A DNA stretch of 64,000 bases from Boswellia sacra (lineage: Eukaryota; Streptophyta; Magnoliopsida; Sapindales; Burseraceae), in the NCBI GenBank assembly GCA_013180625.2, contig SNVD02001254.1:79302-143301 (forward strand), read 5' to 3'. The notes below the pieces were generated by a model. That model had not been told where the DNA came from, did not search any database, and saw only the letters and a list, made by a program, of their open reading frames with translations. Below are positions 10,219 through 64,000 of this stretch, piece after piece. Each line of letters starts with the position of its first letter. Position 1 is the stretch's first letter. Made by a program: the position numbers and the translations under genes.

Positions 10219-10253
10219 TTTCTTTATTGAGTTTGAACTCTTTCCAGTTTCCT

Positions 10254-20255: not shown

Positions 20256-20317
20256 ATATTTGTGCATAAAGTTAACAACAAGTAAGCTATCGTTGATTCA
20301 AATTAATTATACATTTA

Positions 20318-20770
20318 TACATTTTAATTAATTTATTAAAATAAATTAATAAATTTATTAATAAGAATTAATAAATTAAAATAGATTGAAATAAAAATTA
20401 ATAAAATAAATTAATAAATCTATAGTTCCTCTTATTTAATTTATAATTGATTAAAATTAATTATAAAATTTAATTAATTTATTAAAATAAATTAATAAAT
20501 AAATTAATAAGAATTAATAGATTAAAATAAAAATTAATAAAATAAATTAATAAATATATAGTTCCTCTTATTTAATTTATAATTGATTAAAATTAATTAT
20601 AAATTTTAATTAATTTATTAAAATAAATTAATAAATCTATTAATAAGAATTAATAAATTAAAATAGATTAAAATAAAAATTAATAAATCTATAGCTCCTC
20701 TTATCTAATTTATAATTGATTAAAATTAATTATAAAATTTAATTAATTTATTAAAACAAATTAATAAATT
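20318..20770. repeat. AT-rich tandem repeat, ~133-136 bp period
   Basis: The marker TATAG(T/C)TCCTCTTAT recurs at 20421, 20557 and 20690, each followed by TTATAATTGATTAAA. About three and a half units, made almost wholly of AATTAATAAA-like words. Confidence 0.75.
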
Positions 20771-21270
20771 TATTAATAAGAATTAATAAATTAAATAAAA
20801 ATATATTAAAATAAATATCAAACGAAAATAAATTAATAAATTTAGATTAAAATATAAATTAAACAAAAATAAATTAATAAATTTAGATTAAAAAATTAAA
20901 CAAAAATAATCAGTTTAATTTTTGCATATTTTTGTTGGCATTTTTAATGGTTTTGTAATTTTATTGTATCAAAAATTCAAAAATTATAATTTTTAGATAT
21001 TTTGTTGAGTATTTTGTGAATTTTTAAATATATTTGTGGATATTTTATTGAGTATTTTTCAATTATTTAAAATTTAATTGTATATTAGAAATGCCTTGAT
21101 AATATGAAAAATAAATATTATGAAAAATAAAATAAGTATTTTATATATTTGAATATATTCAAAAAATTTTAATTAAATAAAATTAGCACATTCTTTGAGT
21201 AACTAAATACAATAATTGATTCCTTAAAATAGTATTACAATAAATAATAAAGTATGGTATGTTGAATAAC
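20771..21270. other. AT-rich core of the MULE-like element
   Basis: Low-complexity A/T sequence without coding potential. Confidence 0.5.
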
Positions 21271-21274
21271 TTTA

Positions 21275-21345
21275 AGCAGTTGGTGTGGTGGTAAGAAAGC
21301 TATACTACCTTCTTGGAGAAATGGGTTCGAATCATACTAATTTCA
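21275..21345 (+). repeat. tRNA-like segment (box A and box B)
   Basis: TTGGTGTGGTGGTAAG resembles a polymerase III box A, and GGGTTCGAATC about 35 bp later is a near-consensus box B. The intervening sequence does not fold as an obvious tRNA. A SINE head or a decayed tRNA copy is likely. Confidence 0.4.
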
Positions 21346-21631
21346 CTAGCTAACATTTTAGAAATTTGTTCAGAGGGTATTTTAGTAATTATAACGGTAA
21401 CGGTTTTGGATGGAGTAGTGATGCCATCTAAAGGCAAAAGTGACGGAAGGGTGGCTCGTGATGAATCTTCATAACATCAGGGGTGGCAAACAGTGAATAC
21501 GGACGAAATTAAGCCGATGTCATCTAAAGGCAAAAGTGACGGAAGGGTGGTTCGTGATGAATTTTCATAACATCAGGGGTGACAAACAGTGAATATGGAC
21601 GAAATTAAGCCAAAACCAAAGAGGGGTCTGT

Positions 21632-28900: not shown

Positions 28901-29853
28901 AAGAGCTGATCCTCCTCCTCTTGATCAGCAACTTGAGCATCTACTTCTTGTTGCTGAATTTTATTTTTGCAAATCACAACTTCATGACCAAGTTGGTTAC
29001 ACCTGCTCCATTTTGCATCAGGTCTCCTCCAACATTTGAAAGGAGGATGACCCTTTTTGCCACAATGTTGGCATGGAGGATGATTTCCCTTTAGATCTCC
29101 AATCTTGTTCTTGTTGCTGTTTGCTGTAGCATTACCACTTGTATCAAAATTCCTTTTGTTCTTCTTCTTCCTTATTTTTCCTCCTTCTTGATGCTTGACT
29201 GGCAGTGCTCCTTCAACGACTCCTTCTTGCCTCATGACCCTTCTTTGCTCTTGTGCCTGTAAAGCATTTAAGAGCTCTGCCAAGGTAATCTTGGACAGAT
29301 CCTTGGTGTTCTCCAAGGTTGTAATGGTTGCGTCAAACTTTTCAGGCACCGTTACTAAGATTTTTTCAACAATCCTCGAGTCGGGTAGATCAGAACCAAG
29401 CAGTCTTACCTTATTGGCAATGCTTAGAAGTTTGTCAGAATACTCTTTAATGGTTTCTGATTCCTTCATTTTCTACAGTTCAAAATCTCTGATCAAATTC
29501 AGCACTTGCATCCCTTTGATCCTCTCATTTCCTTCATACTTTGTTTTGAGATAATCCCAGATGGCTTTCGCTGATTTGAGTGACATGATTCGGATGAAGA
29601 CAGTTGATGAAACGACAGCCAAACAGGCCTTTGCTTTTGACTTCCTTGTTTTTTTGTCCTTCTGATTCTTGATCTGGGCCATTGTGGGGTTGTCTGGCAG
29701 TGGAGGAACTTCATAATCCTCTTCTACAGCTTCCCAAAGATCCAGTGCATCTAGGTAGGTCTCCATTCTCACAGCCCAAATCTGATAATTTTCTCCATTG
29801 AACACTGGAGGAGCAATTGATGAAAAACTAGCTTCTGTGTCCATGGCTTCCAC
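25904..29853 (-). pseudogene. gag-pol: Copia 3 gag-pol polyprotein with four amber codons
   Basis: Starts at ATG 29853 (MEAMDTEASF). In order: gag (UBN2 type, NYQIWAVRMETYL), zinc knuckle (CQHCGKKGHPPFKC) and a second one (CNQLGHEVVIC), protease (WLIDSGCTNHM), GAG-pre-integrase (HKRLGH), integrase core (HTDLSGP, RSDNGKEY, Glu in QNGVSERRNR), reverse transcriptase (FAPVARLDTIR, LDVKSAFLNG, catalytic YVDD in ISLYVDDLLVTG), and RNase H (SDSDWAGS, then TEAEFVA). TAG codons occur at about 29471, 27606, 27245 and 26271, and a one-base loss near 26033 affects the last 40 codons, which otherwise end at 25904. All other catalytic residues listed are present. Confidence 0.92.
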
Positions 29854-33280: not shown

Positions 33281-35379
33281 TTAGCGAGTGTACAAAAGGG
33301 ACTTTGATGCAGAAGCAGTAGAAGATGAGGTATTGGTACTGTAGCTATAACCGGAAGATTGGCTTTGGCTTACCAAGGAATCATTGGTAGCAGAGGTCAT
33401 TGAAAATAGAGATGCTGGGGTATTCATTGGAGGAGGGAAGTATGTTGGCACAGGCATCTGTGGTGGGAGAATTGGCAATTCGGCTTCGAAGTTCAGAACT
33501 TGAATTGCTTGCCTTATTGAGGGCCTGAGACTTTCAGCTGGGTGAGCACACCATAATCCAACAATCATCAAGCGTTTCAACTGTTGCTCATCAAACTCTT
33601 TGCATAGTCTTGGATCAGCGGCTTCTAACAGCTTTTCACTTCCATAGAGGTCCCAAACCCACTGCACCATGTAGTCCTGTCCTTCTTCGGCCATTGGATT
33701 GATTGGTTTTCTTCCACAAGCTATTTCCAATGCAACAATGCCAAAGCTATAAACATCTGATTCTTTGCTAGCTTTACCTGTTATGACACATTCAGGAGCC
33801 ATATAGCCCATTGTTCCTGCCAATACTGTGGTTTGTGACCCTTTGGCGTGTTCTACAAGCCTAGCTAATCCAAAATCTCCAATCTTGGCATTGAAATTTG
33901 AGTCCAACATAATGTTGCTTGATTTTATATCCCTATGCACAACACATTGCTCCCATTCTTCATGCAAGTAAAGCAATCCTGAGGCTAAGTCTTGAGCAAT
34001 TTTGTACCTCATCTCCCATGTCAATAAGGTGTTGTCTTTAAAAAGATGAGAATCTAAGCTTCCATTTGGCATAAATTCATAAACGAGCAAGAGCTCCTTT
34101 CTCTCGTGGCACCACCCCAGAAGTTGCACCAAATTTCTATGCCTTAATCGGCTAATGATTTTCACCTCTGACGCATACTCCTTTATGCCCTGTTTGGACC
34201 CTTTGGATACCCTCTTAACCGCAATATAAGAGTTGTTGTCCCTCAAAAATCCTTTATAAACTCCACCAAAGCCTCCTTGTCCCAACTTGTGTTCATCGTT
34301 GAAATTATTGGTTGCTCGATGCAATTCCTTGTACGAAAACTTCTTGGGTCCTGTTCCGTTTTCTAATTCTTCATCTATATACCCGTTAAAGCCATGATCA
34401 TGATCATCTTCTTCATCGTTCTTGTTTCCTTTCCTGGCCAGCCAAACTATCAAAACCAAAGCACCAATCAAAACACCTCCACCAAGCTCAACCCAACTGC
34501 AAGTTTTGTTTTTGTACTGTTTTTTCTTCTTCTTCTATTGAGTGCTGGAGGATTTGGATTCGAGTTTGAACTATAATCACCCTCCAAGCTTGAGCTGAAC
34601 TCCCAGGAGTAAAGATTATGAACTGCGGATGCGTTTCCAGTTGCTGCGGAGAAGCCAAAAGTGACCCATTCAGGTAAATAAAGCCTCAAATCGACTTTAT
34701 AATCAAGGTATTGCATCACTGTGGCATTATTTCTGAAACCAGTGAAGACAACACTCAAATTCTGTGTAGTAGAATTGTATCTGATCCATGCTTCGTTCAT
34801 TCGCCCTTCCATTATACTTGTATTACTCCACCATGTGATATTGTTGCTTGATCTCACAGAGTTGATATCAATCCCTACATGTTCACGACCTGCTGGCGGA
34901 TCCCACTCAGGGTTCCTATAGATATCAAATTCAACCGCAACAAACGGATTGGATGTTGAATTCAATTGCTCCCCATCATTGGTGAGACCAAACAAGCCTC
35001 CTTTGGTGACGTTAGGAATCCTGGAACCTTGAGGCGCGAGAAAGAAGGCGAGCCCATCTCCATACGAGGTTCTGTTGTCAGAGTCAATAACAAAAGAGAA
35101 ATGAGTGGTGAAGTCTGTCAGATTTCCTGTGGCGTTATCCCACAGGTGCATAGGTTGGGCGTAGGTGGCTCGAGCGATCATCGCATTGCTTGAGACTAGT
35201 TGAATCACCCCCTTTTGGTAGTCAGCGTAAGCTCTCTCATAGCTTATGTTAGTGTTATCCGAGCCGAAGCTGGAGTAGTTGAAGGATAAAGCACTTGCCA
35301 AAGGGGTTCTCAGAGATAAGAAGATTATGAATATTGCGGAGAAACGGAGAAGAAGAGTGTTAGAGTTGCAGGTAGCCAT
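33281..35379 (-). pseudogene. L-type lectin receptor kinase 2 (LecRK-IX-like), one frameshift
   Basis: A single-exon minus-strand paralogue of LecRK1. From ATG 35379 (MATCNSNTLL) it has a signal peptide, legume-lectin domain (YGDGLAFFLAP, NPFVAVEFDIY, EHVGIDINSV, NLSVVFTGF), membrane segment (about 34490-34420), and kinase with GQGGFGGVYKG, AVKRVSK, HRDIKSSNIMLD, DFGLARL and GTMGYMAPE. The kinase C-terminal tail is Ser/Thr-rich (TNTSSSTASASK). A single-base loss near 34485, within the Gly-rich start of the membrane span, puts lectin and kinase in different frames; LecRK1 reads through the same site in frame. As written only a secreted lectin-domain protein could be made. It could equally be a sequencing or assembly error. 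Confidence 0.88.
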
Positions 35380-36460
35380 TGTTGGGAAGGAGAGAAGCTA
35401 GGATGGCTTAGAATAGTTTCAGATTTTGATCAAAATAAATATCAAAGTCTAAATCAAGTGGTTGGTTGGTACGTAATTGTTTTTCTTTGTCAACTAGGCA
35501 ATATTATTTGGCAAACTAGAGCGAAGATTAAGAGAGCTTTTATTATTATTATTATTATTATTATTGAAAATGGCTTGGACTCAAAACGCTAGCTCTTGAA
35601 ATATCAATTATTAGTGAAATTTTCTATCTATTAAGTAGTAATTATTGAAAGAGAAAAAAATTATTAAACTAAATAAATATGCATGATTGTAAACGAAATA
35701 AACAGAGTGTAATAAAATTTTGTTTTTTATCACAATATTAATTTTCTTATATAATTATACTTTTTCAACGATGTTAAATAATGTGGGTGTGCATGCATGC
35801 ATCACCTCATATTAGATATGGTTTTGATATTGTCCATCTAAATTATTCACCCACCATCAAATATTGTTTGCTACAACTTACTAAAGTTCATGATTTCAAA
35901 TCGTTTTACTAGTTAAGAGACATTTATCTCATAAACATTGTAATTAAACCTCTCCTATACAATGACATGTGAGATACCAAAATATAGATTGATTCAATAA
36001 ATATACCATATGAGAGTGAATTTTTTTAAGAATATTTAATAAAGTTAAGTTAAAACCTCAACCGTCAATAGTAAGAAAGAAAGAGAATTTTTTTTTTTTT
36101 TTTTGTGTGTGTGGAAGTAATAGAACTAATCAAGTGAATGCATTTGTATACAGCACATGGATGCCGGCATATATATACCTCTAACCTAAGGCTCTGTGTT
36201 GACTAACGCGTACATGGTCAAATGAGAAGAGTCAAATGTTTAAATGTGGAGATGAGAATTTGTAGACATCAATAATTTATTCCTCGAGGAAATTTGAAGC
36301 TCTTGTTTAGTTTGAAAATTTGTTGTTTTGCTCTCTTCGAAACTTTGACAAGTATGCCCGCCATGATGCATTTCTATCAATACTTTAATATAAAGTAAAA
36401 TGATTTTTATCGACACGTTTTATGTAAACGATGACTCCAAATAAGTTACTTTCATATATG
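35380..36460. other. LecRK2 upstream intergenic region
   Basis: No gene. A (TTA)n microsatellite lies at about 35540-35567. The LecRK2 promoter is expected in the first few hundred bases. Confidence 0.5.
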
Positions 36461-48955: not shown

Positions 48956-49957
48956 CTTGCCCTAAAATCTCATTCCTTGGTATGCTTCTGAGCAAGTATG
49001 ACCCTAAATCATACGCGTTCCACGCAAAGTGTAACATAAAGCTCACTTAGTGAATGAAAAATCCAATGAGGTATTATTTATATCATGGTGCATAATGCTT
49101 GCAATTAGTTAATATTCCAAAGTTCTTCATCCAAGGATAGAATCCTTTGAAGAAGTTTAGGTCATGAGTACGTTAACTAATAGCCTAGCTTATTAGCAAT
49201 TCAGAGTAGCCTATCTACAGATAAGGCACTTTGATAAAGTTAAAGCTGCTAGTACATTCACTAGCAAGCTTAACTTATTAATTAAGATTCCAATTTAAAA
49301 AATAGAAAGCAATTCGAGCAATCTCTAAAAGAAAAGTCGCCTGACATTGCATGCTGTTCTCATTTATACAAGCACTAAAATAAATAATGAAAGTGAGCAT
49401 CTAGAAGTACCCAATGGAGGCCAAGGCCTTCCTACCTCAAAACCAATTAATAAACCATGTTATATCTCTCAACTATGCAGATCAAGTCATTTGCTGTGTG
49501 ATTTACAAGCTATCATAAGTAACATTAATAATCAAATCAAAAGATATCTTGCTAAAGCAATTGGCTTTGCAATGTCCTAATACTTTGCTTATCCTAGAAT
49601 GGCTTTGTAATGACTTGGTACTTTGCTTATCCCTAAAATACATGCAAAGTATAAAGCTAATCAATGATGGTATTACCAGCATAACATCCATAATAAGATA
49701 TATACATTAAAAGATGAAAAAATAATTTGACAAGTTATCATGCAACAAGCAACCCAAAATAGATCACCTCATCAAGTTCAGTCATAATGAACAATCCAAA
49801 ATAGATCACGTCATTAAGGTCAGTCACAATGGCGATGACAAGTAATCCAAAATATCATCATGTCAAAATTAGTTATAATGGTAAGATACATTCCTTTTAT
49901 CAATAACAGCTTAACAAAATACATGAAGGAGAAAATGTAACATTGGTTCTTAAAGTA
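48956..49957. other. Gypsy 3' non-coding region
   Basis: No gene seen. At about 49750-49880 the phrase AATCCAAAAT(A)GATCA(C)(G)TCA-TTAAG-TCAGT(C/T)A(C/T)AATG recurs about three times, a short degenerate tandem repeat. Confidence 0.45.
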
Positions 49958-50356
49958 TTACTCATGTGCCTGAGGGCTTCCTATAGGAATTTGATCCGCT
50001 TTGGCCAGGATCATCTGATGAAAGGCATCAAAATTAATTATAGGATAAAGCTCGTGAAGACACTCCATGAATAGGTTGCAGAGGTAGTTCCCAGAGTTCT
50101 TGACTTCAAACTCTAATTCATCAATACGGGCATCTGTATCCTTTTCGAATTGTCTTTGTGTTTTAAGTTGTTCTATCAAGTTTTTAAGCTTCTCCCTCAA
50201 CCTCTTACTCTCCTCATCCTTGGAGCGAGCAGATGTCATTAATCTCTTTATAGTTGTCTTTTGTCTTGCAACCTCTTGCTGCTTCGAAGCATCATATTAT
50301 CTCCTTTCGCTAATTAAGATTCTTAGCTTCTCAAAAGAAGCTCTGATCACATCACG
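49958..50356 (-). pseudogene. Antisense coiled-coil ORF of the gypsy element
   Basis: The minus strand encodes a charged heptad-like region (SKDEESKRLREKLKNLIEQL, TDARIDELEFEV) and then NLFMECLHELYPIINFD and LAKADQIPIGSPQAHE. The clean reading frame is 50239-49958. It extends upstream in the same frame (KQQEVARQKTTIKRL) to about 50356 with one stop near 50298. Antisense ORFs downstream of pol are known in Tat elements such as maize Grande; their role is unknown. Confidence 0.6.
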
Positions 50357-50421
50357 ATGTTATACGAAGATAAAAGATCCATGCAATTACCAATGTTTAA
50401 TAAAAGATTGGAAAGACATAA

Positions 50422-50560
50422 CACTACAAGAAATTTTAAAATATTTGACACATTAGCTTTTATATATTTGACCATTTTTTGTAAAACCGTAAAATATGAT
50501 GTCCCCAAAAAAAGTCAACATACTTTTGGCTTATACTTGACAGTATTAATTTTTATTTTA
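50422..50560 (+). repeat. CACTA left terminus and subterminal repeats
   Basis: Terminal CACTACAAGAAA followed by ATATTTGACAC, TATATTTGACC, AAAGTCAAC and ATACTTGACAGT. These words recur inverted near 63660-64000. Confidence 0.75.
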
Positions 50561-50654
50561 TTTACGAATTTGCCATCCTATATATATTATGTTTTCATTC
50601 CCTCTTTTTCTTTTGCCCTAAATCGATTCCCCTCCACTCTTTCTGTCGTTCCCT

Positions 50655-50724
50655 CGCTTTCTCCTTATCTCCCTCGCTCGAATCCCTTATCTCCCTCACT
50701 CGAATCCCTTATCTCCCTCACTCG
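50655..50724 (+). repeat. 23-bp tandem repeat in the COX10-like leader
   Basis: TCTCCCTC(G/A)CTCGAATCCCT-type units repeat nearly three times in a pyrimidine-rich stretch that is probably the captured COX10 5' untranslated region. Confidence 0.75.
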
Positions 50725-50834
50725 ATCAATCTTTCTCTTTTTCAATCGACTCTCAGCGGCTCAATCCCTCATCTCCTTTGCTCCCTATTCACCGGTATCT
50801 CTTCCTCAATCCATCACTCAGGTCGATCGGTCTG

Positions 50835-50854
50835 CACTGCATCATTACTTTGTG
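50835..50854 (+). repeat. 20-bp direct repeat left of COX10
   Basis: CACTGCATCATTACTTTGTG here is identical to 54686-54705. The two copies bracket the COX10 segment. Confidence 0.9.
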
Positions 50855-50979
50855 TTGCTATTGGGTTGGTTCTTTTTATTTAAAAAAAAAATTCAATTTT
50901 GAGCAAATGGTCAAGATATGATTTTAAAATTATTTTTTATTTAATTTTCCTTTAGTTCTAGGTTCACAGAAACTTCATC

Positions 50980-53900
50980 ATGTGGAGAAACAGCTTTGTC
51001 CGGCAACTGCTGTCTCACTCCGGGTCGCAGAGTCCTCACTTGTCAATAGAATTAGGGGCTTTCATCAACAGTAAGTCTGATGGGATTCCATCTCGTGCCT
51101 CTTCCTCTTCGGCCATGGCCACTGCCACTGCCACTGCCGCTTTTACAGCAACAACCATGGCCGTTGATCTTTCATCATTCGTTCGCGCATTTCAGCCGTT
51201 GCTATTGGGAACTCTCCAAAGCTCGACTCAGGTTTTCTCTCAATCCTTCATCATATTCAATCCGTTTGCTTAAAACATAATCTAAGTGAATCGATTATAC
51301 ATATGCATGTTAGTTTCTCATTGAAATTTCTTGTACTATTGTATGTAGCATGCTAGTTGTTGCAACTTCTGGAACTGGATTTGTACTGGGGAGTGGGAGT
51401 GCCATTGATATAGCTGGACTTTGTTGGACATGTACTGGAACTATGATGGTTGCTGCCTCTGCTAATTCTTTGAATCAGGTGATATAAACTCTTTCCATCA
51501 TTGACTTAAATAATTAGTCAATTAGTAGTGCATCTACAACTTACTACAAGGACAACAGAGGCCAAGCTTCCTAGCATGGGAAATTTTTGAAATTACTTAG
51601 GAATTTGTTTAAAACTTCTAGACTAAAATTTCATTTAAACAAAAAAAAAAAATTGGCTCTCAGTTCCTGAAGTTTGGCTCTGCCTCTATTAGTCATTATC
51701 TATTTCATATCTTTAATGCTTTTCTTTTTTATTCACGACCAGTATACTCAAGAGATTATTAAATAATGAAAGACTTGGAGAATTTTATATGAGTGATTTC
51801 TTTGTTCAGTTGTTATGTTTGATGGAAAGTTGTAGATAAAACAGAAATATAGGAAATTTTTTTTCCTTATTCTTTTGTCGGGTAGATGACTAGATATAAA
51901 TATATTGCGTTGCTTCACTCTGTTAGTATTTTATGATTGCTTATTCTCGGTTATTAGGTATTTGAGATAAAAAATGACGCAAAAATGAAGCGAACAAGGC
52001 TAAGACCACTGCCTTCAGGCAGAATTTTTACGCCTCATGCGGTTATCTGGGCATCTTCTGTTGGTGTAGCTGGCACTGCTTTATTGACATACAAGGTGGC
52101 GAAATAAAATTACTCTTTATTAAGTATTGTTGGACATCATCATGTTATACTCTTGTCTTCACCAAATAGATAACTTGCTACAATCTGAGAGACTAATATT
52201 GTATCTATGCTGGCAAGGAGTTTGCAGGCTAATATGTTGACAGCTGGACTTGCAGCCTCTAATCTTATTCTTTATGCATTTGCATACACGCCATTGAAGC
52301 AAATTCACCCAGTCAATACATGGGTTGGTGTTGTGGTTGGCGCTATTCCACCCCTTCTTGGGTAATTTTTTTTTTTGGTGTCTTTAATTTGTCTTTATAG
52401 CTGCATCTCATCTCATTTTACCACGCTACTAAGAAAATTTCTTCTTGGAATTAGGCATATCCATGATAAATCATCTTTTCAATAGACAATAATAAGAAAG
52501 AAAATTGATAATGTTAGGTGTGATCCAATCAAAGTTTTAATGCGTGTAATGCTAGTTCTTGGGATTTGTGAGGAACTCTTATTTCCATTATTATGCTTGC
52601 AAGTTTCAAGTTGAGACTCATTAGCAGTTCTCTACCCATCTTTGGATTCTTGATGCTAAAAATGATATATGTTCATTTATTGTGATAGTTTTGGATGGAA
52701 GTGCTATTGCACTCTGTATTGTTACCACTACTGAGAATTGATGCAATTTATTTGTAATTCATTTGGAGTTCTTTAGTAGCCTCTTCATACTGCCTTGATA
52801 TAGGGAATTTCACTGATAGGCCTGGAGAATTATAAACTATAGCAATCTTATTTAGCTGATCGTAAAGAGCTTAGATCCTTTGACAAGAATAACAAGTGTT
52901 TATCATTGGAAAATGATGGCTTTTTCTCCTTGCAGACTTTCATTTATACTTCTGATGAATTTTTCAAGAGTTCGTACTGATCAAATCATTAGATTGATAT
53001 TTTTATTAAACCCAACCAGAATCCAAGTTTACATGCTTTATTGTTAACTCAAAACTTAATAGTCATGCATGCATGCTCATGCTTGTCTCTGTTCTGGATT
53101 CTCAGTTGGACTACAGCTTGTGGTCAAGTTTCGCTTAATGGAATGCTTCTCCCTGCAGCTCTTTACTTTTGGCAAATACCCCATTTTATGGCTCTTGCAT
53201 ACTTGTGTCGCGATGATTATGCTGCTGGAGGGTATGTACATTTGTCATGAAATAATTGGTGACAACTTGCTTTGGTTATGGCTCAATGACTGTGTAGGGA
53301 TGTTGTTTCACCATGTAGTATACTGCTCTGGCTTTCTTCTAACTTGTCCAAAATTTGCTATAAGCTAAGACATAGAGATGACCCAATGACATGACCTTAA
53401 GTGCTTATACTGGAAAAATTATTGATAATTTAATAGTACTTGTGATACATATCTAGTACGAAAATATTTAGTTTTCGCAAAGATGATCAATTGATCGTCA
53501 ACAGGGATATTATATACAGTGGTGTGATAATTAAACATCTTTTTTACCTATTTCTTATTTTTATCATTTATCAACATTTCAGTTATAGGATGTTCTCGCT
53601 TGCTGATGCTTCTGGTCAGAGAACTGCCTCAGTTGCCTTGAGGAACTGCCTGTATCTGATACCATTGGGATACTTAGCATATGATTGTGAGTTACAAGAG
53701 TACCAAATACAGATCTCGTTTACGAGTTATTTATTTATTTTTAATTTTTCCCCTCCAAATTTGGTTCTTTCTGGCAAGCTCTCCTTTAATTTTTGGGCAA
53801 AAAAAAAAAAGGTTTTTTTGTACATGATTAATAGATATTGAATAACTTGAGTCAGGGATGCTTTTGCTTCTAATTTTAGAATCCTTTTCTTCATTTTTTT

Positions 53901-54458
53901 TGGATTGCAAACCTCTTTCTTGAATAAACTATGAAATGAACCCAGCTTCTGAAAAATTAATTTCTATATAAAGCATTTATGATGTACTGTATATTTCTGT
54001 CCAAACATGCCGTAATTTCTACAATATGAATTCATCTTGTTTCACCCTTCAACATAACTTGTCTGTCTACAGGGGGGATGACTTCTGGGTGGTTTTGTCT
54101 TGAATCGTCACTTATCACTCTAGCAATAAGTGCTGCAGCATTCTCATTCTATCGAGATAGGACAACTCAGAAAGCCAGAAGGATGTTTCGTGCCAGCCTC
54201 CTGTATCTTCCTGTGTTTATGTCAGGGCTCCTATTTCACCGCTACACTGATAACTAGGATTGCCTTACAGAAGAAAGTTCAGACAATGTCATCAAGTTTT
54301 CAACATCCTCAGAAACTGTAGCTGAAGATAGTGGAAATTTCAGCACCAAGAACAAGTTGAAACATTCCTCTGATAGCAGACGAGCACGTCCACCTGTAGC
54401 ATATGCCTCTGTTGCACCATTTCCCTTCTTGACTGTCCCTACCTATGCTTCCCCTTGA
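50980..54458 (+). pseudogene. COX10: Protoheme IX farnesyltransferase (heme O synthase), captured copy
   Basis: COX10 farnesylates heme B to heme O in the inner mitochondrial membrane for cytochrome c oxidase. Seven exons with GT-AG introns are seen: 50980-51231, 51349-51478, 51958-52095, 52228-52361, 53106-53231, 53583-53686 and 54073-54458. The start MWRNSFVRQLL and the Ala/Thr/Ser-rich leader suit a mitochondrial presequence. The UbiA-type core is well kept: SANSLNQ at the end of exon 2, the polar KNDAKMKRTRLRPLPSGR prenyl-binding segment in exon 3, [15 protein letters not shown], and PAALYFWQIPHFMALA. Two defects are visible: a one-base frameshift in exon 1 near 51186, just before the RCYWELSKARL segment, and an amber codon at 54255-54257, after which the same frame continues 66 codons to a conserved-looking tail (RPPVAYASVAPFPF). 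Length would otherwise be about normal for plants. The gene lies inside the CACTA element, so it is probably a captured copy and not the resident locus. Confidence 0.9.
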
Positions 54459-54685
54459 TTTGTTGATGGATATTGGTAGGTAATTGTGCAAGGTTTTCTG
54501 GTTTTCTTGAACAATTTTGAAATTATTTTCCAATATTTGTTTTCTGTTGGAATAAGTTTTTTTTTGTTGGTCTTCTTGTTGATAATGCTCTACACCATGG
54601 GCTCGAAAGAGCACAGGAGAAGAGTGTTCCATAGAGGCTGCCTGGAACATTTTTTGAACAGATCATTATGTGTTGCTAAACATTT

Positions 54686-54705
54686 CACTGCATCATTACT
54701 TTGTG
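54686..54705 (+). repeat. 20-bp direct repeat right of COX10
   Basis: Second copy of the sequence at 50835-50854. Confidence 0.9.
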
Positions 54706-54816
54706 CATAGATCGCTAGTTCTAATAATCTGTTCATGAGTCTTAACCATTTTCTTTCCTTCCTCTAGCTTCTGGGTGACAGAGGCTTAGCCATTTTCTTT
54801 CCTTTTCTTTTTATAG

Positions 54817-55335
54817 TTGGATGTTTGGGCCAAGGAGAGAGAAGCTACTGGTTTGAGGGTAAGCTTGAATACTTTGATGTCTTAAATACAATGACTGAAT
54901 AAATTGTGTGCCGAGAGGAAAGAAGCTGAGGATTCATTAAGGAAAAAGTGGAAGAAGATTGAAGAGATTCTCGCAGATCTGAACTTGAAACAATATACAC
55001 TGCTCTACTCAGGGCTAATATGGTGAGCATCAATCTCCGATATATCTTGGAAAACTTGAAAAAAATTGTTTGTATTGGGCTCACTTATATGTATTTCAAC
55101 TGGAGAATGGTAAGTGGTCTTATTATGGTTCTATTTACCTTAAAGGATGCAACTGCATTATGGAATCAGCAGCCATTAGCCGCAAGGGAGTTTGCATCAA
55201 GCACCATCATTCCTGCATGCACAGTTGTTGTCGATATTTGAAATAGTGCAAAAGGTTTCATTGATAAAGAAGTTTCTGCTTTCTATCGAAGTCCTGATAA
55301 TAGTCTATACATGCTTCTGTCAACCCCACATGTTT
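54817..55335 (+). pseudogene. AUG5: Augmin subunit 5 fragment (two exons)
   Basis: Exon 54817-55022 reads [34 protein letters not shown] and, after a 4-base loss near 54968, [16 protein letters not shown]. Exon 55146-about 55335 reads [20 protein letters not shown] and [20 protein letters not shown]. These match my knowledge of plant AUG5 (HAUS5-like), a coiled-coil subunit of the augmin complex that recruits gamma-tubulin to microtubules. Splice sites are present. Stops at about 54886, 54892 and 55240 and the 4-base deletion show it is dead. It is only a middle part of a much longer gene. Confidence 0.82.
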
Positions 55336-55419
55336 GTAAGATAGCAACTGTATATATGTTTTGATTAAATACAAGTTTTAATTATTTTCTTATCATAATT
55401 TACATTATTGAATTGGTAG

Positions 55420-56136
55420 GTATGAACACCGCCTTATTGATGATATGGTGGCTTATGCTCTTAAGAGTGAGGGGGGTTATGTGTGGGCATGCAAAAACTA
55501 TGATGGAGATGTCCAGAGTGACTTTCTAGCCCAAGGTTTATTTAGTAAAGCGTTAGAACTTCAAGTTAGTTAAAGAGTTGTGTAGTTTTTGCTTCAATCT
55601 TCTGTAACCTGAAACAAGTTTGCTGCTTCTTGTAGTTATTTAGGCATTCAGTGCTTTGATCGATCACTAATTTCCAGTTACATGTCTGTAGGGTTTGGAT
55701 CTCTTGGATTGATGACATCTGTATTGGTACATCTCTTCACAATGATCTATTTTGTTTTGATATATACATTGCATTATCTCATTATCATTGGTTATTTAAA
55801 AAGTTGCATGTATCTACTTTTGTGGGTCTGCAAAGTGTTTTCATTCTTATGGATTTCTTTTTGCTTCTTACGAAAAATTGTTAAAAGTATCTTGATGTCA
55901 CACATACAAGACATTAGGTAATTCTGGTAGGGCAGGAGGACACTATGCTAGCATTTCAATGAAAATTAACTCTTTCTCTATCTTTTACCATTTGTATCTT
56001 CTTTTTTTCTTACTGGAGTATGAACTGGCTCCAGGTGTGCCCAGATGGGAAGACAATAGAAGCAGAAGCTGCCCATGGAACAGTTACACAGCATTACAGG
56101 GTTCATCAGAAAGGTGGTGAAACCAGCACAAACAGG
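55420..56136 (+). pseudogene. ICDH: NADP-isocitrate dehydrogenase fragment (three exons)
   Basis: Exons 55420-55535 ([37 protein letters not shown]), 55692-55736 (GFGSLGLMTSVL) and 56035-56136 ([33 protein letters not shown]) are consecutive parts of plant NADP-dependent isocitrate dehydrogenase, including the Asp-rich metal/isocitrate-binding loop and the HGTVT NADP-binding motif. Splice sites are intact and no stop is seen within the exons. The N- and C-terminal exons are absent. The intact enzyme converts isocitrate to 2-oxoglutarate. It lies only 85 bp after the AUG5 piece, so the join is inside intron sequence. Confidence 0.88.
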
Positions 56137-56712
56137 GTTCATCGCTTTCTTTTTTTTTGATCTTTAAGGCATTGTCTAAGACTGAAAAAAAAAAGCATTT
56201 CCTTCTGGCCTTTTAGAAAGTGATTCCTAACTCAAGTCATCCCAGTAACAGTAGAACAGAGACAAAGTTGATACTACATGAACAAGCAAAGCAAGTAGGC
56301 AGTTCCCTTAAAAACTTGCTTACCATTGCATTCTCATTAAGAATTAGTAACTTCTTTTGTATATTTCTCACAATCAGTGTATGATATTCCATCATCCCTG
56401 CCTTTAGAATGTCATTCTTTTCAGTTCAGAGGTTGTGTCCCACTGATGGGAACTTGTTTGTCAGTACCAATAAACACCCATTCCCTGTTTTTATTATGTC
56501 ACAAGATACCACTGCCCCTTCTTATTATAATCATGCAATGGAATATAATAGCAGGGCTTGGTATTTATTGATATTTGCAAATATTTTTGTTCTATGCTCT
56601 AACTTCTAAATTCTTTTTCCTACTTGGTTTTTATTTGTCTTCTACATTCCTATTTATGTAAATATTGCCATTTTTTTTATCCTGAATAATGCTTCTGTTT
56701 GCTCGGATTCAG
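56137..56712. other. CACTA interior without a gene
   Basis: No exon-like segment; the open frames at 56377-56609 overlap each other and match nothing known to me. Confidence 0.45.
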
Positions 56713-57747
56713 TTGCAGGGTTCATCTAGTCAATGGGTTGATGTGATGAAGAAGAAGAGAGCAGTTCATGAGAATATTATAAATTTAGTGCATCAGCAAC
56801 GTTCTAGCAAAAATGTGGAGAAGGTAAACTTTTGATATGCATTCTACAGCAAAACATTATATAATTGAGGACAGTTGATAGTTAACTACTGTGAAATTTT
56901 GGTCTGTCTAGGCTTGGTTATTATTTATAGATGGTCTGTTTAGTTTTGCTTTCAAAGGTTTTGGTCGCTTCCTTTATGGTTTTTTGTATATATCTAATGA
57001 ATTATTTGACAATTTGCAGGAAGTTCAATCTGAAGTCGTTCCTTTGAGAGAAAAGGAGAAAAAAGGTGTTTATCCATGTCTAGTATTTAAATCACTCATA
57101 ATAATCGTTATTTTCATTTGGAATGTGTTTATGTTCCAAATTTTAGTTATTAAAGGAAGTTTTTGAGCTTGTTGAGAACATTCTAATATGAAGATCTGTT
57201 TAGAATGAAGGCAATGTTGTTCCTTTATTAGTAAAAAGAGGTTTCAATTATAATGATTTTTATCTTCTTCATAAAAAAACATTTTATCCTTTGTTTGTAG
57301 TTATTGTCATACGGTTGATAATTATGCATAAAGTTTATTTGCAGAGAGAAACGGCATTAAGAAAGAAGCATGGAGATCATCTGATTGGTCATTTTAAAAG
57401 CCCAGAGAATGCTACTACCATTGGTGGTACTGCTGAATCATCATTGTGCCTCAACCATGAGGTCTCAGGTATGATACTACATAACCAGTAAAAATAATTA
57501 CAGAAAACTTTAAGCAGAAACAAAAAATGAAATGGCATAATTGTGGTCTTAACTTTATCATGTCTGAATAATCTTTTTGTTGATGTTCTGACTTCTAAAG
57601 TATTCCCTTTTCTCAAGATTCACAAGAGAGTTTTCTTCAAGGCGAAGAAGTAACCAGGCGAGCTGGTTTACCATCGAATCCTGCATATGTCTCTGGAACC
57701 AAGGAAAGTGAAAAAAAATTTTCTTTTCAGAAGCAAAAAATCCCAGT
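56713..57747 (+). pseudogene. Unidentified gene fragment with four exon-like segments
   Basis: Four plus-strand open blocks have good splice borders: 56713-56823 ([30 protein letters not shown]), 57020-57065 (EVQSEVVPLREKEKK), 57345-57468 (RETALRKKHGDHLIGHFKSP, TAESSLCLNHEVS) and 57618-about 57747 (DSQESFLQGEEVTRRAGLPS, NPAYVSGTKESEK). The protein is charged, Ser-rich and without a recognised domain. I do not recognise the gene. The retained AG acceptors and GT donors suggest a real gene captured with its introns. Confidence 0.5.
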
Positions 57748-57823
57748 TAAGGATTACTTAATATTTCTTTTTAAGCTAAGATTCTACCCCATTCTTTGAA
57801 TACTATCATTGTTATGATTTTAG

Positions 57824-57926
57824 GATAGTGGAGGTTTTTAGAGATTGGACAAATTGGCTTCTTTACAGAGGTGGAATTGGAGTTAAAGGGGAAGAAAGCT
57901 GGGAAGCTTGGTGGGAAGAGGAATTG
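57824..57926 (+). pseudogene. CALS: Callose synthase exon fragment
   Basis: The block reads VFRDWTNWLLYRGGIGVKGE followed by ESWEAWWEEEL, a highly conserved segment of plant callose (1,3-beta-glucan) synthases, glycosyltransferase family 48, found in the cytosolic catalytic region. An AG acceptor precedes 57824 and a GT donor follows 57926. Only this one exon is present; the parent gene spans tens of exons. Confidence 0.82.
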
Positions 57927-58608
57927 GTATTAGTTCTGTTCTCTGTCGTTTCTTTGGTTGATTGTCTGGTGTTATTTGCCTTCTATTTTTTGCAGTTTAT
58001 TTTGCCTTTTATTTTCTATAGTTTATTTTGATTGTTTACTTAAAAATACTAGTAAGCCTCTTGTTTTATTTGCTTAATTTCTATTAGTTGGTTATTACAT
58101 TGAAAGGGCCTAAACGGTGCGTTTAGTTCCCTGCCGTTCAACCAAACTTTTGTCTGGTAGTTGATCAGATTAGCTTATGTATTGTAATGGTTTTTTCACA
58201 AAAGAGAATAGAAATTTCTTTTCTCCTGGGATTTGTTCTTCCTGGACACCCAGTGAGCTACATCTTTCATGCATCCAAAAGATTACTGTACTACTTTCCA
58301 TTCAAGTGTCTGCTATCAAGTTCTGCTAGATTACTGTTGTTAGGCACTTATTAGCCTCTTCTTTTTTAGATTAATTTATTTTGTTCTACCTTTTGAGTGC
58401 TAAGTATCATAAAATTTGTGTTTTTTTTTATTTGTCCTTCTATTTTTTTGGGTCCACCATTAATGATCTTTCAATGCTTCCAAATTGAACTGGTATATAT
58501 CTTTTGTCTTTCAATGCTTATATTTATTTCTCAGACTTGTATGAAGAACACATGTATACATCTTTTGTCTTTCAATGCTTATATTAATTCCTCAGACTTG
58601 TCTTTCAG
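57927..58608. other. CACTA interior; 61-bp tandem duplication
   Basis: No exon recognised. CTTTTGTCTTTCAATGCTTA and the following bases to CTCAGACTTGT occur at 58501 and 58562, a tandem duplication directly before the LAZ1 exon. Confidence 0.6.
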
Positions 58609-59044
58609 AACTGGTATGGTTACCAACAGTGGATGCTGAGTCAGAGTCAGTTGAAGCCATCACCTTGCCAATCTTCAGTGCAAGCATATGTGTTGTTGTT
58701 GCTATTGTTCTCTCGATGTATCTTATCTTCGAACATTTAGCTGGTTATAATCAGCCCGAGGTTCATGCTTATTTTCTCTATTTTGAAGTTTGGTTATCCT
58801 TTATATAATTATGCTTTTATATGTTTATTTTTCACTCATAGTACTCACATATTGCTGCTGTTGTCAAAATGGCTTTGTACTATCTTGTATAATTTTTCTA
58901 GTTAAAGTCTAAACTGTTTCTATTTCAATTAATTTTTTCCTTTTGTTGATGTTTGATTTCAGAAGCAAAAGTTCTTGATTGGACTCATTCTGATGGTTCC
59001 TGTTTATGCTCAATATGGGAAGGATCACTCCTTGAGGATGGAAG
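58609..59044 (+). pseudogene. LAZ1/DUF300 membrane protein fragment (two exons)
   Basis: Exon 58609-58760 reads LPIFSASICVVVAIVLSMYL then IFEHLAGYNQPE, and exon 58963-59044 reads KQKFLIGLILMVPVYA. This is the first transmembrane helix and the conserved loop and start of helix 2 of the LAZ1 / Ost-alpha-like (DUF300) family, tonoplast and vesicle membrane proteins. The end of the second exon (QYGKDHSLRMEG) does not follow the family and may be a junction with other DNA. Confidence 0.72.
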
Positions 59045-59272
59045 GTAATAATTTTTAATCAATACAATATAAAACATCTTATATGTTGTCGAGCTTATTT
59101 GTTTGTTGGAAATATGTATGTGAAACATTGGTAGTACTTTGATTGGGATAGATGAAGATAACTGCCGTGTCTCCCCACTTCTATTCCAAGGAAAAAAGAT
59201 ACCCATCCAAGTTCTTTCAATGCAAATCCGTTGTTTAAGAACTTGATCACCTGATGGTTTTTTTATTTTTAT

Positions 59273-59374
59273 TTTTTTACAGCAGCTTCCTGCAACCAAA
59301 ATGAGCAAAAGATTTACTCTTGGATGTTTATTTTAAGTATTTTTTTTTTACAGCAGCTTCCTGCAACCAAAATG
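59273..59374 (+). repeat. Short direct repeat, 71-bp spacing
   Basis: TTACAGCAGCTTCCTGCAAC followed by CAAAATG occurs at about 59277 and again at about 59348; each includes a possible AG acceptor. Confidence 0.75.
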
Positions 59375-59561
59375 CAAATCACTTGAGGCTAGACGTGAGA
59401 GTAAGAAAAAATTGAGCTTTTTGGTTTAGGAGAGTTAGGAGTTAAACATGTTTATTTTGTCAATAAACTGATTTTCTTGCCTGGTCTTGTTGTATATTCC
59501 TTTTTACTTTTTTATACTTTCATGAATGAAGTTTAGAACACTAACATCGTTTGACTTCAAG

Positions 59562-59614
59562 CACCTGGAAGAGAGTTCTTACTCCATGTGTCATTTCTCG
59601 AAATCTACAATAAG
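59562..59614 (+). pseudogene. Kinesin motor-domain exon fragment
   Basis: The 53-bp block between AG and GT reads PGREFLLHVSFLEIYNK, which matches the kinesin motor segment around the conserved S-x-x-E-I-Y-N motif; the preceding PGREFLL fits plant kinesin-7. Only one exon is recognised, so the call rests on about 17 residues. Confidence 0.65.
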
Positions 59615-62600
59615 GTAAGTTGCTTCGCTTACAATTTAAGAAGTCTGGATTAGTTTTATTTAAGTATTAAAGTAGATTCATTGTGTTTTTTGAAGTCATT
59701 TTAAGAAATTCCTTCCATTTTGTTGATTTTATAACCTACATAGCTAATTTTCCTATCTTCTGTACATGTTCTATTTCATCTTTCTGGATACAATTCGTTA
59801 ATTTCCTTCTTTATAAAACCTCTTTTAAAACCAATAATATTTTTGTATCCAGAATGTATATTATGATATGTTGTACTAATTTATGTTTCTTATATCGGGT
59901 GATAAATGAATTGCTTGTTTGATTTCTCAAGTTCAATGGCTAATCTCTTTAATTTCTCGTATCTTTTTTTATTTCGATTGTATTTTTTTGGTGGAGAGGT
60001 GACTGTTTTTATGGGCATGAGGGCAGGGGTTGGTTCTTTGAACGGGTTCATGCTTTAAGTAGGGGTTGTGTGTTTTTTGTTTTGGGTTTTTTGTTTTTGA
60101 ATGCTTTGGATGGGGGCTGGGAGTTTTTTGTTCATATTTCTATCTGGGTTATGTTTTTGAGTAGTTTGTATGCTTCAATTAGAAGTTATTTTGGATTAAC
60201 ATAAATTGATGTGTGTTCACTATTTAACACTTCTTTAAAATTGGTGTTCATTTCTTTGATTATCTTTCTCATGTGGGTTCCACACGATCTCAAATGGGTA
60301 TGTAACAAAATTTCAAATTTATATCGGTAATGCTTGTTCTCTTTACATGCATGCATTTATTTTTACTTCTATTAAATTTTTTCAGGGGGTTTTTGGGTTA
60401 TTTGGTTGTCTATCTTATGTGAGGTGCTTTTTTTTTTAATTTTTATGTTTATACTATTTTTTGTGTTGTAATTGTGTTCTGGTGTAATCTATAAGCATAG
60501 TTTCTTTAGGCCCATGAACAACCAAGCAATAGACTTGTATTAAAAAATCACTTTCAGTTTGTTTGTAAATGAATAAATTAATGATATGATGGTGCAAATT
60601 TATTTACATTTATGCAAATAATCAAATAGAGGAAGGTGTGATTCTTTTAGTTTTATTATTACGTAATCAATCAAAAGCAAAAGAGAGTGTCCTTGTATTG
60701 TTTGAGTTGTTGTTGTTATTATGGTTTCTAGCTTTGATGTTTTCCCTCTATTTGATTGCTATGAAACTGTAGGAAAACAGTAGTTAAATTTCCAAAATTG
60801 CATTCGTTCTTTATATTCTATAATCGTATTGCATAAAGTCCTTGGTTAATGAATTTTTTTATGTTATTTTGTATGTCATTGTTTGGATAGATTTGACTAA
60901 ATAGTTGTTGATTATTGACTGAATTTCTGCTTTTTTCACTTTTGACCATTTCCTTGAGATGCTCATCTGTGTGGGCAGTATGTTAACATTCATTGACACT
61001 TAGGAAATTGGTCTATATTGTCATTAATACAGTGTGGTGATGCACTTAAAACTCCCAATTTTAAAATATATCCATCAATATCTTCTCATAATAGAAACTC
61101 CTAGATCCCAGAATATATGTAAAACTATGAAAACATAATCATTAATATTACCATCTGTTAAGTAAGTAGATAAAGTATATTTTTATTTACTTTATTGTCT
61201 TTGATTAGTATATTTTTGATTACTCACTTTGCTGGGAACTTCTGTGGCTATCATAGATCTTGTGTCATCATATAAATCGAAATTTAAAAATGAAATAAAA
61301 TGAAAGAGGAATCAGTTAACTCTTTTTTTGTTGAAATTAATGAAAAAAAAACTAAAAAGAAGGGAAGAAAGAAATTTCAGATTTGAGATGGTGGTGTCTA
61401 GTAGATTTCTTAGGATAGATTATTAATTATAAAGAAATTGTTTTGTTTGGGAGAGGAATGGATTCTATGTAATTTATTTTGATTGATTATTATTTAATAG
61501 GGTGTACTTTAATTGAAAGCTTCAAAATTTGACACTAGGAGGAAAAAGCTCGAAGCTGCCCAGTTGTAAGTCCCTCCTCTCTTTCTTGCTCTTTCCTTTT
61601 CAACTTACCTGACCTTGCTAACTTGATTTTTTGATTGGTTGATGATTCTTGATCATTGCTTATTAGGATAGCATTTTCAATTTTTTAGTCAAATTCAGTT
61701 GATATGGTTTACGTTTGTAGTCTGTTTCTTACTTTATTATTTGATTGGTTTCGTTGCTTGCATTGTGATATTTACTGAAATTGGGTGCATGTGATATGGG
61801 TCATGTTTTGATCTTACTTTGGGGCTTGCTGAGTGGATGTTTTGTTGCAATTTGGATATCTAATAGACCTTGATTGATGGGCATATAATTTCTCAAGGAT
61901 TTGTGTTGATTCATGCTCTGGTGGTTTCTATCGTAACACAATTGTTGTTTATTTTAAATTTGAGGCTTTTCTTTTATGGGGATTTATGCTATGCGTTGCT
62001 AGAACATAGTTATATTCTACCCATTTTGGGCTATTGTGCATACACGAATAACATAATACAATGCTTGTTTACGCTCAATTGTTGATTAGCTTTTTTGTCC
62101 ATTTCTTTCTCTTATGTGAATATCTTTCCACTGAACGATCTGATACTTTTAGTCACGACTATTACACAGTTCTAGTTCTTCAATTGATGTTTCAAATGCC
62201 AGACCCACTGTATTAATAGATGTACCCCAGTGTTCCATTTTCTGGCTGCTGTAGAATATATCCTGATTGTCAACCATAAACCTGTTATGTTGCTTGTAGC
62301 TCTGAATTATGTAAAGATGGCTGCTCTGAATTATGTTGCTTGTAGCTCTGAATTATGTTACAAACAGTTGTTAAGACCGTGTGTAGGGGTGCAAGCTGAT
62401 TTTTAGATATGTGAAAGAAAATCAATATTTGATGTAGCCCCTTGTATGGTTACTTGCTTTCTTAATGAGTTGGTTCTTTTTATGGTTTAGCTCATTTAAA
62501 TGTAAGATTGAACTAAAATGACCTGTTTGTAAAACATTAATTGCATACAGATGGGTGAAGAATGACCAAATAATAATAATAATAATAATAATTTTTTTTG

Positions 62601-63049
62601 GAATTGAAGGGTTTGTGCAACAAACAATGTACTAAGGTTTGCTACTTATAGTGGCATATTCTGGTTCAGAAAACATCATTGATCACCTGAAGTAATTGAA
62701 GTTTCTGATAAATTGCTCAATGTATTGAGTTTTGGAAGGATTGAATCTTTTATACATTAAGTGTTGCTGTTCTAAAATTAATCAGGCGATATCAAAAGAA
62801 CAAATAAAATTAATAAGTGATTTTTTGTTAACAAAGTTGAACATTTAGGTCTAACTGAGTACGTCTGCAATGATTTTTGTTTGTTCAGCCGTATAAATTA
62901 CTTAAAATAAGATAGAAACGTCCAGGAGCTTTATGTTATTTGAATTCTTTGGGGTCTTTTGGTACATTTGACTTGCTTTACTTATTCAACTCACATGACA
63001 ATGGTTTTGGAATTTGTCGGACTAAACTCTTATTTGGCCTTTTTTGCAG
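59615..63049. other. CACTA interior, mostly non-coding
   Basis: T-rich, intron-like DNA with no recognised exon. Seen: a (AAT)n run at about 62570-62592, and GCTCTGAATTATGT repeated three times at about 62318-62360. A possible exon at 61540-61567 (GGAGGAAAAAGCTCGAAGC) is too short to call. Confidence 0.4.
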
Positions 63050-63166
63050 CTTGCAGCAACTACATTTACTGGGGCAATATTTTACTTTTGTGCCTTTTGT
63101 TTCAAGAGCATGTATGGTTTCCTTGCTCTTTTCTCCATTGGTGAACTTTTAATCTTTGCCATTCAG
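63050..63166 (+). pseudogene. Spinster-like major facilitator exon fragment
   Basis: A 39-codon block between AG and GT reads LAATTFTGAIFYFCAFCFKS then MYGFLALFSIGELLIFAIQ, two hydrophobic segments. The pattern fits a transmembrane pair of plant spinster-homologue transporters (MFS). No other part of that gene is recognised. Confidence 0.55.
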
Positions 63167-63590
63167 GTATTTCTTTTGCAACGCTGAAAGACCTCAGCAT
63201 CATCCAGATATGCTAATTAATTTCGCTACTGCAGTCACATGTTTCCCATTTATCATGTAGAAACTTTTATACATTAATCTTATGAAATTCAGGATTATTT
63301 GTAATACAATTTTACTTTCAATGTCTTCAAGTAGTGATCTTGATTTGGAATTCCTAGCCCTCCACAAACTGAAAATTATAAACTCATGTTAAGAAGCATA
63401 ATTTATGCTAGTGAAAATATTTGTGTCCATGGTAAGATCTCAACCTTAATCTACCTATAATTGTTCAATTTTGTGTTGGGATTTATTGGGATTTAAATAT
63501 GGTTTTTTAATGTTGATAGAATATAGTTAGGTCTGATAGACTATAATTCAGTTTTAATTTATTCATCTATAAATTTCATAAACCTAAAAC
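63167..63590. other. CACTA interior, 3' side
   Basis: No gene found. Confidence 0.45.
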
Positions 63591-64000
63591 CAAGTTCGAA
63601 ATTTCAAGGTCTCACCAAGTTCGAAACCAAGTTCGAAATTTCAAATTTTTAAGTTAATAATATTTGACTGTAAAATAGCTTACATACTTGACGGTCAAAA
63701 GCAATCAAATATGTTTCGTAAAGAGTCAAATATGAGCCAAAATATTTACCATACTTGACAGTATCGAAAGGGTCAAGTTTTAAATTAATAATATTTGTCT
63801 GTCAACAAGGGTCAAATATTATTCTATGCTCACATACTTGACAGTTAGAAGCAATCAAATATGGAAAAAAATTCCGTAAAACTTGACGGTTACTGCAAAA
63901 TACTTGACGGTTATAAGCAGTCAAATATTGAAAAATTCGACCATTGGAATCAAAATATTTGACGGTTACTGTCAAATATTATTAACAAAATTTTAAAATT
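63590..64000 (-). repeat. CACTA right subterminal repeats
   Basis: CAAGTTCGAAATTTCAA-like words occur three times at 63590-63645. Then (A/T)CTTGAC(G/A)GT and CAATCAAATATG alternate at about 63690, 63755, 63835, 63880, 63900 and 63958. The window ends in AAAATTTTAAAATT, the inverted match to 50430-50442. Confidence 0.75.

Follow-up and report, generated by a model that had tools for sequence, protein, structure and literature searches.

Several transposon systems that carry pieces of host genes have been described, as follows from excerpts of the articles cited here. Tgm-Express1, a CACTA element of soybean, holds five host-gene pieces with introns, which are spliced into chimeric mRNAs (PMC1947982). 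The Tpn1 family of Japanese morning glory consists of non-autonomous En/Spm-type elements with Tpn1-type tips, subterminal repeats of 122 and 104 bp, a 3-bp target site duplication (TSD), an interior replaced by host genic sequence, and a chimeric transcript (PMC5105172). For Pack-CACTA and other Pack-TYPE elements of Arabidopsis, rice, and maize, capture from multiple loci is reported and fusion of neighbouring same-orientation insertions is proposed, with compatible examples among small elements (PMC8903248); this fusion of neighbours is a published model, and local pairs mostly have one orientation (PMC8903248, PMC13317346). At capture joins, animal Pack-TIRs show microhomology as well as some short insertions, for which gap filling or template switching is proposed (PMC8277862); in maize, related Helitrons form series in which pieces were captured successively (PMC3288121); and Chenopodium CACTA elements have captured gene pieces in their 5' region (PMC8978399). 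Here we describe a CACTA-type element at positions 50422-64000 of a 64,000-bp stretch of Boswellia sacra DNA (the window; contig SNVD02001254.1, below C609, positions 79302-143301).

This kind of element is already known, and what stands out is the readable record of its assembly. Like Tgm-Express1, it is a CACTA element with pieces of several unrelated host genes and introns kept. In contrast to Tgm-Express1 (5.7 kb, five pieces), it measures 13.8 kb, contains at least 10 pieces, and is known from DNA alone, while its donors, unfused forms, and fusion joins are visible. By description, it is also similar to the Tpn1 family in its non-autonomous En/Spm-type build with a host genic interior; the excerpts on that family give neither the direction of its captured genes nor a history of how its members were assembled (PMC5105172). 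Multi-locus capture is common to it and the Pack-CACTA/Pack-TYPE elements, as is fusion, proposed for the latter; unlike in those examples, the fused partners are multi-gene elements of several kb and the joins include templated filler. Microhomology and insertions at joins liken it to animal Pack-TIRs, for which the excerpts give no multi-gene example (PMC8277862). In the literature excerpts, no account was found of a multi-gene CACTA fusion with both unfused forms preserved, or of a sense-only rule for CACTA captures. Multi-gene capture by plant transposons has mostly been argued from end products. Here, donors, unfused forms, a hybrid, and truncated offspring coexist in one genome, which places apparent break-repair copying and fusion side by side. 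Maize Helitrons are alike in their series of related elements with captured pieces; they differ from CACTA elements in superfamily and transposition chemistry.

The element is best read as a non-autonomous Pack-CACTA transposon bearing pieces of about ten plant genes, which would have arisen by multi-donor break repair, fusion of two pack-elements, and later deletions; the probability of the identification, and of this joint reading, is put at roughly 0.78. Its parts are listed below in window coordinates, with other contigs denoted by C numbers.

50422..50839, plus: CACTA left terminus, tip CACTACAAGAAA and 418-bp left-end module (left-end search)
50840..50861, plus: filler between left end and COX10, also in C5214, C6383, and C6634 bar single substitutions
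50862..54653, plus: COX10 (protohaem farnesyltransferase) from 5' leader to past the stop codon, introns kept, pseudogene; donor C6560
54650..54741, plus: 92-bp piece from C6245, 97%
54742..54782, plus: filler with a second partial copy of the start of the AUG5 piece (repeat 54737-54760 vs 54781-54804)
54783..55390, plus: AUG5 (augmin subunit 5) fragment; donor C5575 / C5300, 94-95%; Pfam HAUS5
55387..56135, plus: NADP-isocitrate dehydrogenase (ICDH) fragment; donor C6619; Pfam Iso_dh
56185..56327, plus: 143-bp piece from C3518
56324..57236, plus: gene A fragment (unnamed), two exons by eye; donor C6413:448254-449158
57282..57768, plus: gene B fragment (unnamed); donor C2972:1662589-1663075
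57765..59132, plus: callose-synthase exon (by eye) and LAZ1/DUF300 exons (weak Pfam match)
59132..59135, no strand: fusion point of two pre-existing pack-elements; matches end or start here
59135..59325, minus: copia reverse-transcriptase fragment; RVT_2 in the longer C3462 version
59326..59378, no strand: deletion scar (1.2 kb lost) that includes a short repeat; C6641 and C3462 are longer
59379..62003, plus: older reshuffled blocks, including a kinesin-like exon at 59561-59614; many contigs at 75-98% in varying combinations
62010..63476, plus: spinster-like transporter fragment, named by eye; donor C5057:94285-95780, paralogue C6770
63477..64000, plus: right subterminal repeat region; true tip beyond the contig end

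Each genome search scored at most 40 candidates; copy counts are thus lower bounds, and absence is weak evidence. The left tip CACTACAAGAAA occurs once in the window, at 50422, exactly where an earlier sequence-only reading of the window had placed a CACTA terminus. The "mirrored sequence" which that reading saw at the window end is not a tip. It belongs to the subterminal TTGACGG/GTCAAA repeat region, in which TTGACGG, TTGACAG, CTGTCAA, and GTCAAA cluster at 63663-63971 in both orientations, with few of them at the left end. The right tip is not visible in the window because C609 stops at 64000 and, judged from a sister copy, the true tip lies ~260 bp beyond the contig end. This sister, on C5214, is full-length (13,837 bp) and about 99% identical to the window element (98.96% and 99.64% in aligned pieces, and 97.2% for the last 218 bp). 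It closes with the CACTA-type tip TTTCTTGTAGTG, its end reading ...TTTTTTCTTGTAGTG, so the right end predicted past 64000 exists in the sister, whereas the contig of the window copy stops short of it. The same tip TTTCTTGTAGTG closes the copies on C6641, C6050, and others.

Thus, the element has both a terminal inverted repeat starting with CACTA and the subterminal short repeats by which the CACTA (En/Spm) superfamily is recognised. According to the features expected of a Pack-CACTA, host gene sequence from elsewhere in the genome stands between the CACTA ends, and the repetition in the genome indicates movement after capture: the left end with the COX10 join is held by at least 10 contigs and the 461-bp right part by at least 16 (the window's included in both cases), and copies of the hybrid element have differing flanks. 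The 3-bp target duplication matches in 3 of the 7 relatives with both tips read (C178, AAT; C3533, AAT; C6685, TCT). Among the 40 scored rows of the left-end search, 10 match all 440 bp queried (one of them 439), and the other 30 match at most positions 1-418, with 83-97% identity. Since these 30 stop by 418, the 418-bp module seems to be a generic left end that the members of a larger family have in common.

As for the fusion, matches of C5772, C2173, C6868, C2698, C6377, and C6634 stop at 59132 among the matches listed, and C609, C5214, and C6641 run on past it. C5772, the only one of the six read beyond this point, continues with unrelated DNA. C3462 agrees from 59135 on and extends to the left with additional sequence of the copia fragment. 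Because C5772 and C3462 differ across 59132|59135, the window element is taken to be the left part of one pack-element, joined through a few filler bases to the right part of another, and both unfused forms persist elsewhere in the genome (C5772 and C3462, respectively). Three contigs support the fusion join, and two contigs the two deletion scars. Assembly errors at the joins, which the earlier reading had allowed for, are contradicted by the recurrence of these joins on further contigs.

Relatives found via the common right part bear three other left ends. Compared over 170 bp, the four left ends reach only 70-76% similarity, while the right parts are 97-98% like that of the window. The relatives were first sought with the right end, a choice that makes exchange on the left easier to see; the later left-end search added 30 further scored loci whose match is confined to the 418-bp left end, whole or partial. 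In C3424, most of the left part (ALG6-like exons, and FREE1-like exons recognised by eye) is one block on C6635 and C2389 (96%); on the same strand of C6635, a related right end follows at a distance of 4.6 kb. This left part meets the element at 52816, inside COX10, and C3424 shows the same kind of fusion event as the window element. The third class (C7034, C178, C3533, and C6685) has an NPH3-type gene before 62054, matched by C5936 and C2906. Since the breakpoints 62054 and 52816 fall within the spinster and COX10 donor matches, these classes are taken to be truncated elements that gained new left parts; an alternative in which the nested right parts record the growth of a short element was rejected on account of these breakpoints. 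The 58501/61725 join of C3424 was likewise dropped as a separate fusion and is treated as an inherited deletion, because C4434 has the same join and the same 13-bp filler. A segment of ~290 bp at element positions ~2600-2930 (loci L023, L017, and L021) is inverted in C178 compared with C3533, C6685, and C7034.

Two deletions can be placed in a similar way. By coordinates, seven other contigs have ~2 kb more between AUG5 and ICDH. In C6641, the one read, this extra stretch consists of additional AUG5 sequence, a piece of another gene, and additional ICDH exons, and by eye all of these run in the sense direction. The left edge of ICDH is a deletion join, found among the matches listed only in the window copy and C5214. 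At 59325-59379, C6641 and C3462 have 1.2 kb more. The window element and C5214 are thus deletion derivatives of a larger progenitor. Matches of C6383, C407, C1610, and C4434 break at a common point near window position 58400-58405; in C6383, the one read there, sequence resembling a long terminal repeat retrotransposon (by eye) follows, and the element may have carried along a nested insertion.

The number of donor genes, anticipated as eight or more, is about ten. Eight carried pieces have donor loci on eight other contigs, 93-97% identical over ungapped sites: COX10, AUG5, ICDH, gene A, gene B, spinster, and the two small pieces from C6245 and C3518. The suggested search of the same genome for donors was therefore successful for these eight. 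Callose synthase, LAZ1, and kinesin match many contigs, and among the genome matches listed none could be singled out as the donor. The stretch 57765-59011 (callose synthase and LAZ1) is common to a second set of contigs. Gene names given earlier from the letters alone are confirmed by Pfam matches above gathering for COX10 (UbiA, 130 bits), AUG5 (HAUS5), and ICDH (Iso_dh), while LAZ1 stays just below the cut-off (Solute_trans_a, PF03619, 22.4 bits against a gathering value of 24.9). Callose synthase, kinesin, and spinster keep tentative names, given by eye from short exons with no Pfam match; a PDB search returned nothing for callose synthase and spinster. On C5057, the spinster donor (94285-95780) lies 37 kb from an old element carrying part of the spinster gene (132145-133356); this old element is 92-95% similar, and the spacing would fit local capture.

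Introns are present in the captured pieces, as had been claimed, and spliced mRNA was therefore not the template. The carried genes look dead. Compared with its donor, the COX10 copy has a 1-bp insertion causing a frameshift in exon 1 and a change of CAG to TAG near its end, and is a pseudogene; the AUG5 frame is broken relative to its donor as well. The AG and GT are retained at the COX10 exon edges inspected. Joins had been thought to lie all in introns, which fails in two places: the ICDH join at 56135 falls within an exon, so not every join is intronic, and the 3' join of COX10 is situated beyond its stop codon. By the precedent of Tgm-Express1, chimeric mRNA from the element is plausible.

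At the join between the left end and COX10, positions 50835-50854 are an exact 20-nt copy of 54686-54705, which lies in the C6245 piece beyond COX10. The C6245 locus differs at one of these 20 bases, and the element's own C6245 piece is therefore the likelier template of the filler. Templated capture, proposed previously, is thus supported at the COX10 end, where the join carries a copy of a neighbouring segment. The start of AUG5 is partly doubled (54737-54760 and 54781-54804), and COX10 and the C6245 piece have TTTT in common at their join. Such filler and microhomology are what break repair with template switching would leave.

Substitutions relative to the donors are 152/3740 for COX10, 3/92 for the C6245 piece, 27/608 for AUG5, 22/749 for ICDH, 4/143 for the C3518 piece, 30/903 for gene A, 33/487 for gene B, and 90/1444 for spinster. 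The six left pieces are homogeneous in divergence (chi-square p 0.56), and their pooled value of 238/6235 (3.8%) compares with 123/1931 (6.4%) for gene B and spinster on the right (p 2.5e-6), these p-values being approximate, as sites are interdependent. The gene B and spinster pieces would accordingly be older than the six left ones. The join of ICDH and gene A recurs in at least 13 contigs, the window's included. Among the matches listed, element-type COX10 is found on 14 contigs, 13 of which also have the ICDH-gene A stretch, C1363 being the exception; C6868 has part of that stretch without COX10, but starts at its contig edge. For the left-block pieces, a single multi-donor event or a short burst seems the simplest reading.

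Purely stepwise capture is the best of the alternatives, though an unlikely one: genes would be taken singly, as two neighbouring elements and the host DNA between them move as one in the Pack-CACTA tandem model. It is a published model (PMC8903248, PMC13317346), and it fits the varied left ends on one right part, the mismatched TSDs in C3424 and C3462, and the older right-hand pieces. The 92-bp and 143-bp pieces and the 20-nt templated filler are, in contrast, awkward for host DNA trapped between elements. Inside the element there is no second CACTACAAGAAA (diverged remnants were not searched for), and 13 of the 14 COX10 contigs listed also hold ICDH-gene A, with no intermediate among the matches listed.

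Regarding orientation, all host-gene pieces that could be oriented (14 of 14, over three element classes) are sense:

Window class, sense: COX10, AUG5, further gene in C6641, ICDH, gene A, gene B, callose synthase, LAZ1, kinesin, spinster
C3424 class, sense: FREE1-like, ALG6, a further gene
C3533 class, sense: NPH3

The uniform plus orientation described before therefore stands for host-gene pieces and fails for the copia fragment at 59135-59325, which is antisense to the element. The tally leaves out frames that could not be read as genes, which in the C3533 class lie on the two strands around element positions 2937-3445, and likewise the whole C3462 class, in which nothing but the copia piece could be recognised; a 97-amino-acid antisense frame in C3533 has no Pfam match and was excluded. 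The chance of 14 alike is 1.2e-4 if the pieces are independent, which they may not be. Open reading frames (ORFs) number 22 sense and 6 antisense at >=80 amino acids, and 55 and 28 at 60 amino acids. Among the ten longest ORFs per strand, 3/10 sense (two of them ALG6) and 0/10 antisense have Pfam matches above gathering.

A more ambitious version of the break-repair reading appears improbable: the left block (~8-9 kb in the progenitor) would be one repair event reading at least six unlinked loci, always sense, possibly from nascent-transcript templates and under a family-wide sense-only rule. A grapevine CACTA family includes an antisense gene piece (PMC2528002), which disfavours a universal rule of this kind. 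If the sense-only rule were true of the whole genome, selection acting on spliced transcripts could more easily be told apart from an orientation inherent in capture. Break-repair capture from unspliced nascent RNA, which would account for both sense orientation and introns, is more doubtful still. The 14 sense pieces over three classes, the excess of sense ORFs (22 vs 6), and the Pfam counts (3/10 vs 0/10) all lean towards it. Sense bias, however, fits other causes equally: sense-strand selection, as suggested earlier (for splicing or against antisense RNA), and oriented insertion. Several of the 14 pieces owe their names to inspection by eye, and some may go back to one event. Moreover, nothing indicates transcription of the pieces from C6245 and C3518, and antisense pieces do occur, namely the copia fragment here and the gene piece of the grapevine family (PMC2528002).

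A host gene cluster or an assembly error instead of a transposon is very improbable. The contig does end inside the element, but the donors lie on different contigs, by which a single-locus cluster was rejected, and the joins recur on further contigs, by which assembly error was rejected. Helitrons have neither inverted tips nor a target duplication, and subterminal repeats are not a Helitron feature. Though Helitrons too gather gene pieces stepwise (PMC3288121), the CACTA inverted tips, subterminal repeats, and 3-bp duplications (3 of 7 relatives) reject this last candidate almost completely.

The genome holds donors, a fusion join along with both unfused forms, varied left ends on one right part, templated filler, and several hybrid copies. 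In place of the simple collection supposed earlier, the Pack-CACTA reading combines a fusion of two pack-elements with an apparent multi-donor capture, later trimmed by deletions. In this history, an older element would have been broken internally, close to its left end, and repaired by copying several unlinked loci, with template switches at a few matching bases, and COX10, the 92-bp piece, AUG5, ICDH, the 143-bp piece, and gene A were probably acquired in one event or short burst. Two pack-elements of the same orientation, presumably neighbours, fused at 59132/59135, the left partner retaining its left tip and losing its right end, the right partner retaining its right tip and losing its left end. 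Hybrid copies, now at several places, would have been moved in trans by a transposase encoded elsewhere, and later deletions took out ~2 kb and 1.2 kb.

Several results weigh against this history. In 4 of the 7 relatives (C5214, C3424, C3462, and C7034) the flanking 3-bp sequences do not match, and C5214, which lacks a matching TSD, is the sole other copy of exactly this form among the matches listed. No transposase was recognised by eye in the element, and no autonomous partner with the TNP2-type transposase expected of the CACTA superfamily was found, with no genome-wide search behind either statement. With gaps counted, the last 480 bp of C3424 and C3462 reach only 76-90% similarity to the other copies. 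Donor divergence presumes that the located loci are the true sources, and over the eight segments it has no rank trend with position (Spearman 0.38, p 0.35); given two divergence strata and no such trend, simple right-to-left growth with age was rejected. The one-burst reading is based on equal divergence and on the lack of intermediates among scored hits, which quick successive captures fit equally. Finally, the right flank of C5214 resembles the left flank of the window element, and a contig swap inside the element is therefore possible.

The window and C5214 elements adjoin the same tandem-repeat unit (49727-50421 and L015:644-1400, copies 86% alike), standing left of the element in C609 and right of it in C5214. 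The two elements may have a target repeat in common, or contigs may have been swapped within the element.

As for the rest of the window, two genes for lectin-type receptor kinases are seen by eye on the minus strand at 15917-18041 and 33281-35397, each of them divided between two frames. According to ORFs inspected by eye, remnants of MULE transposase, LINE, and copia elements occupy 2836-4339, 8865-13582, 22833-24151, and 26272-29472. A tandem-repeat cluster at 18987-21611 consists of a 322-bp unit present twice, 101-bp and 96-bp units present twice, and AT-rich arrays.

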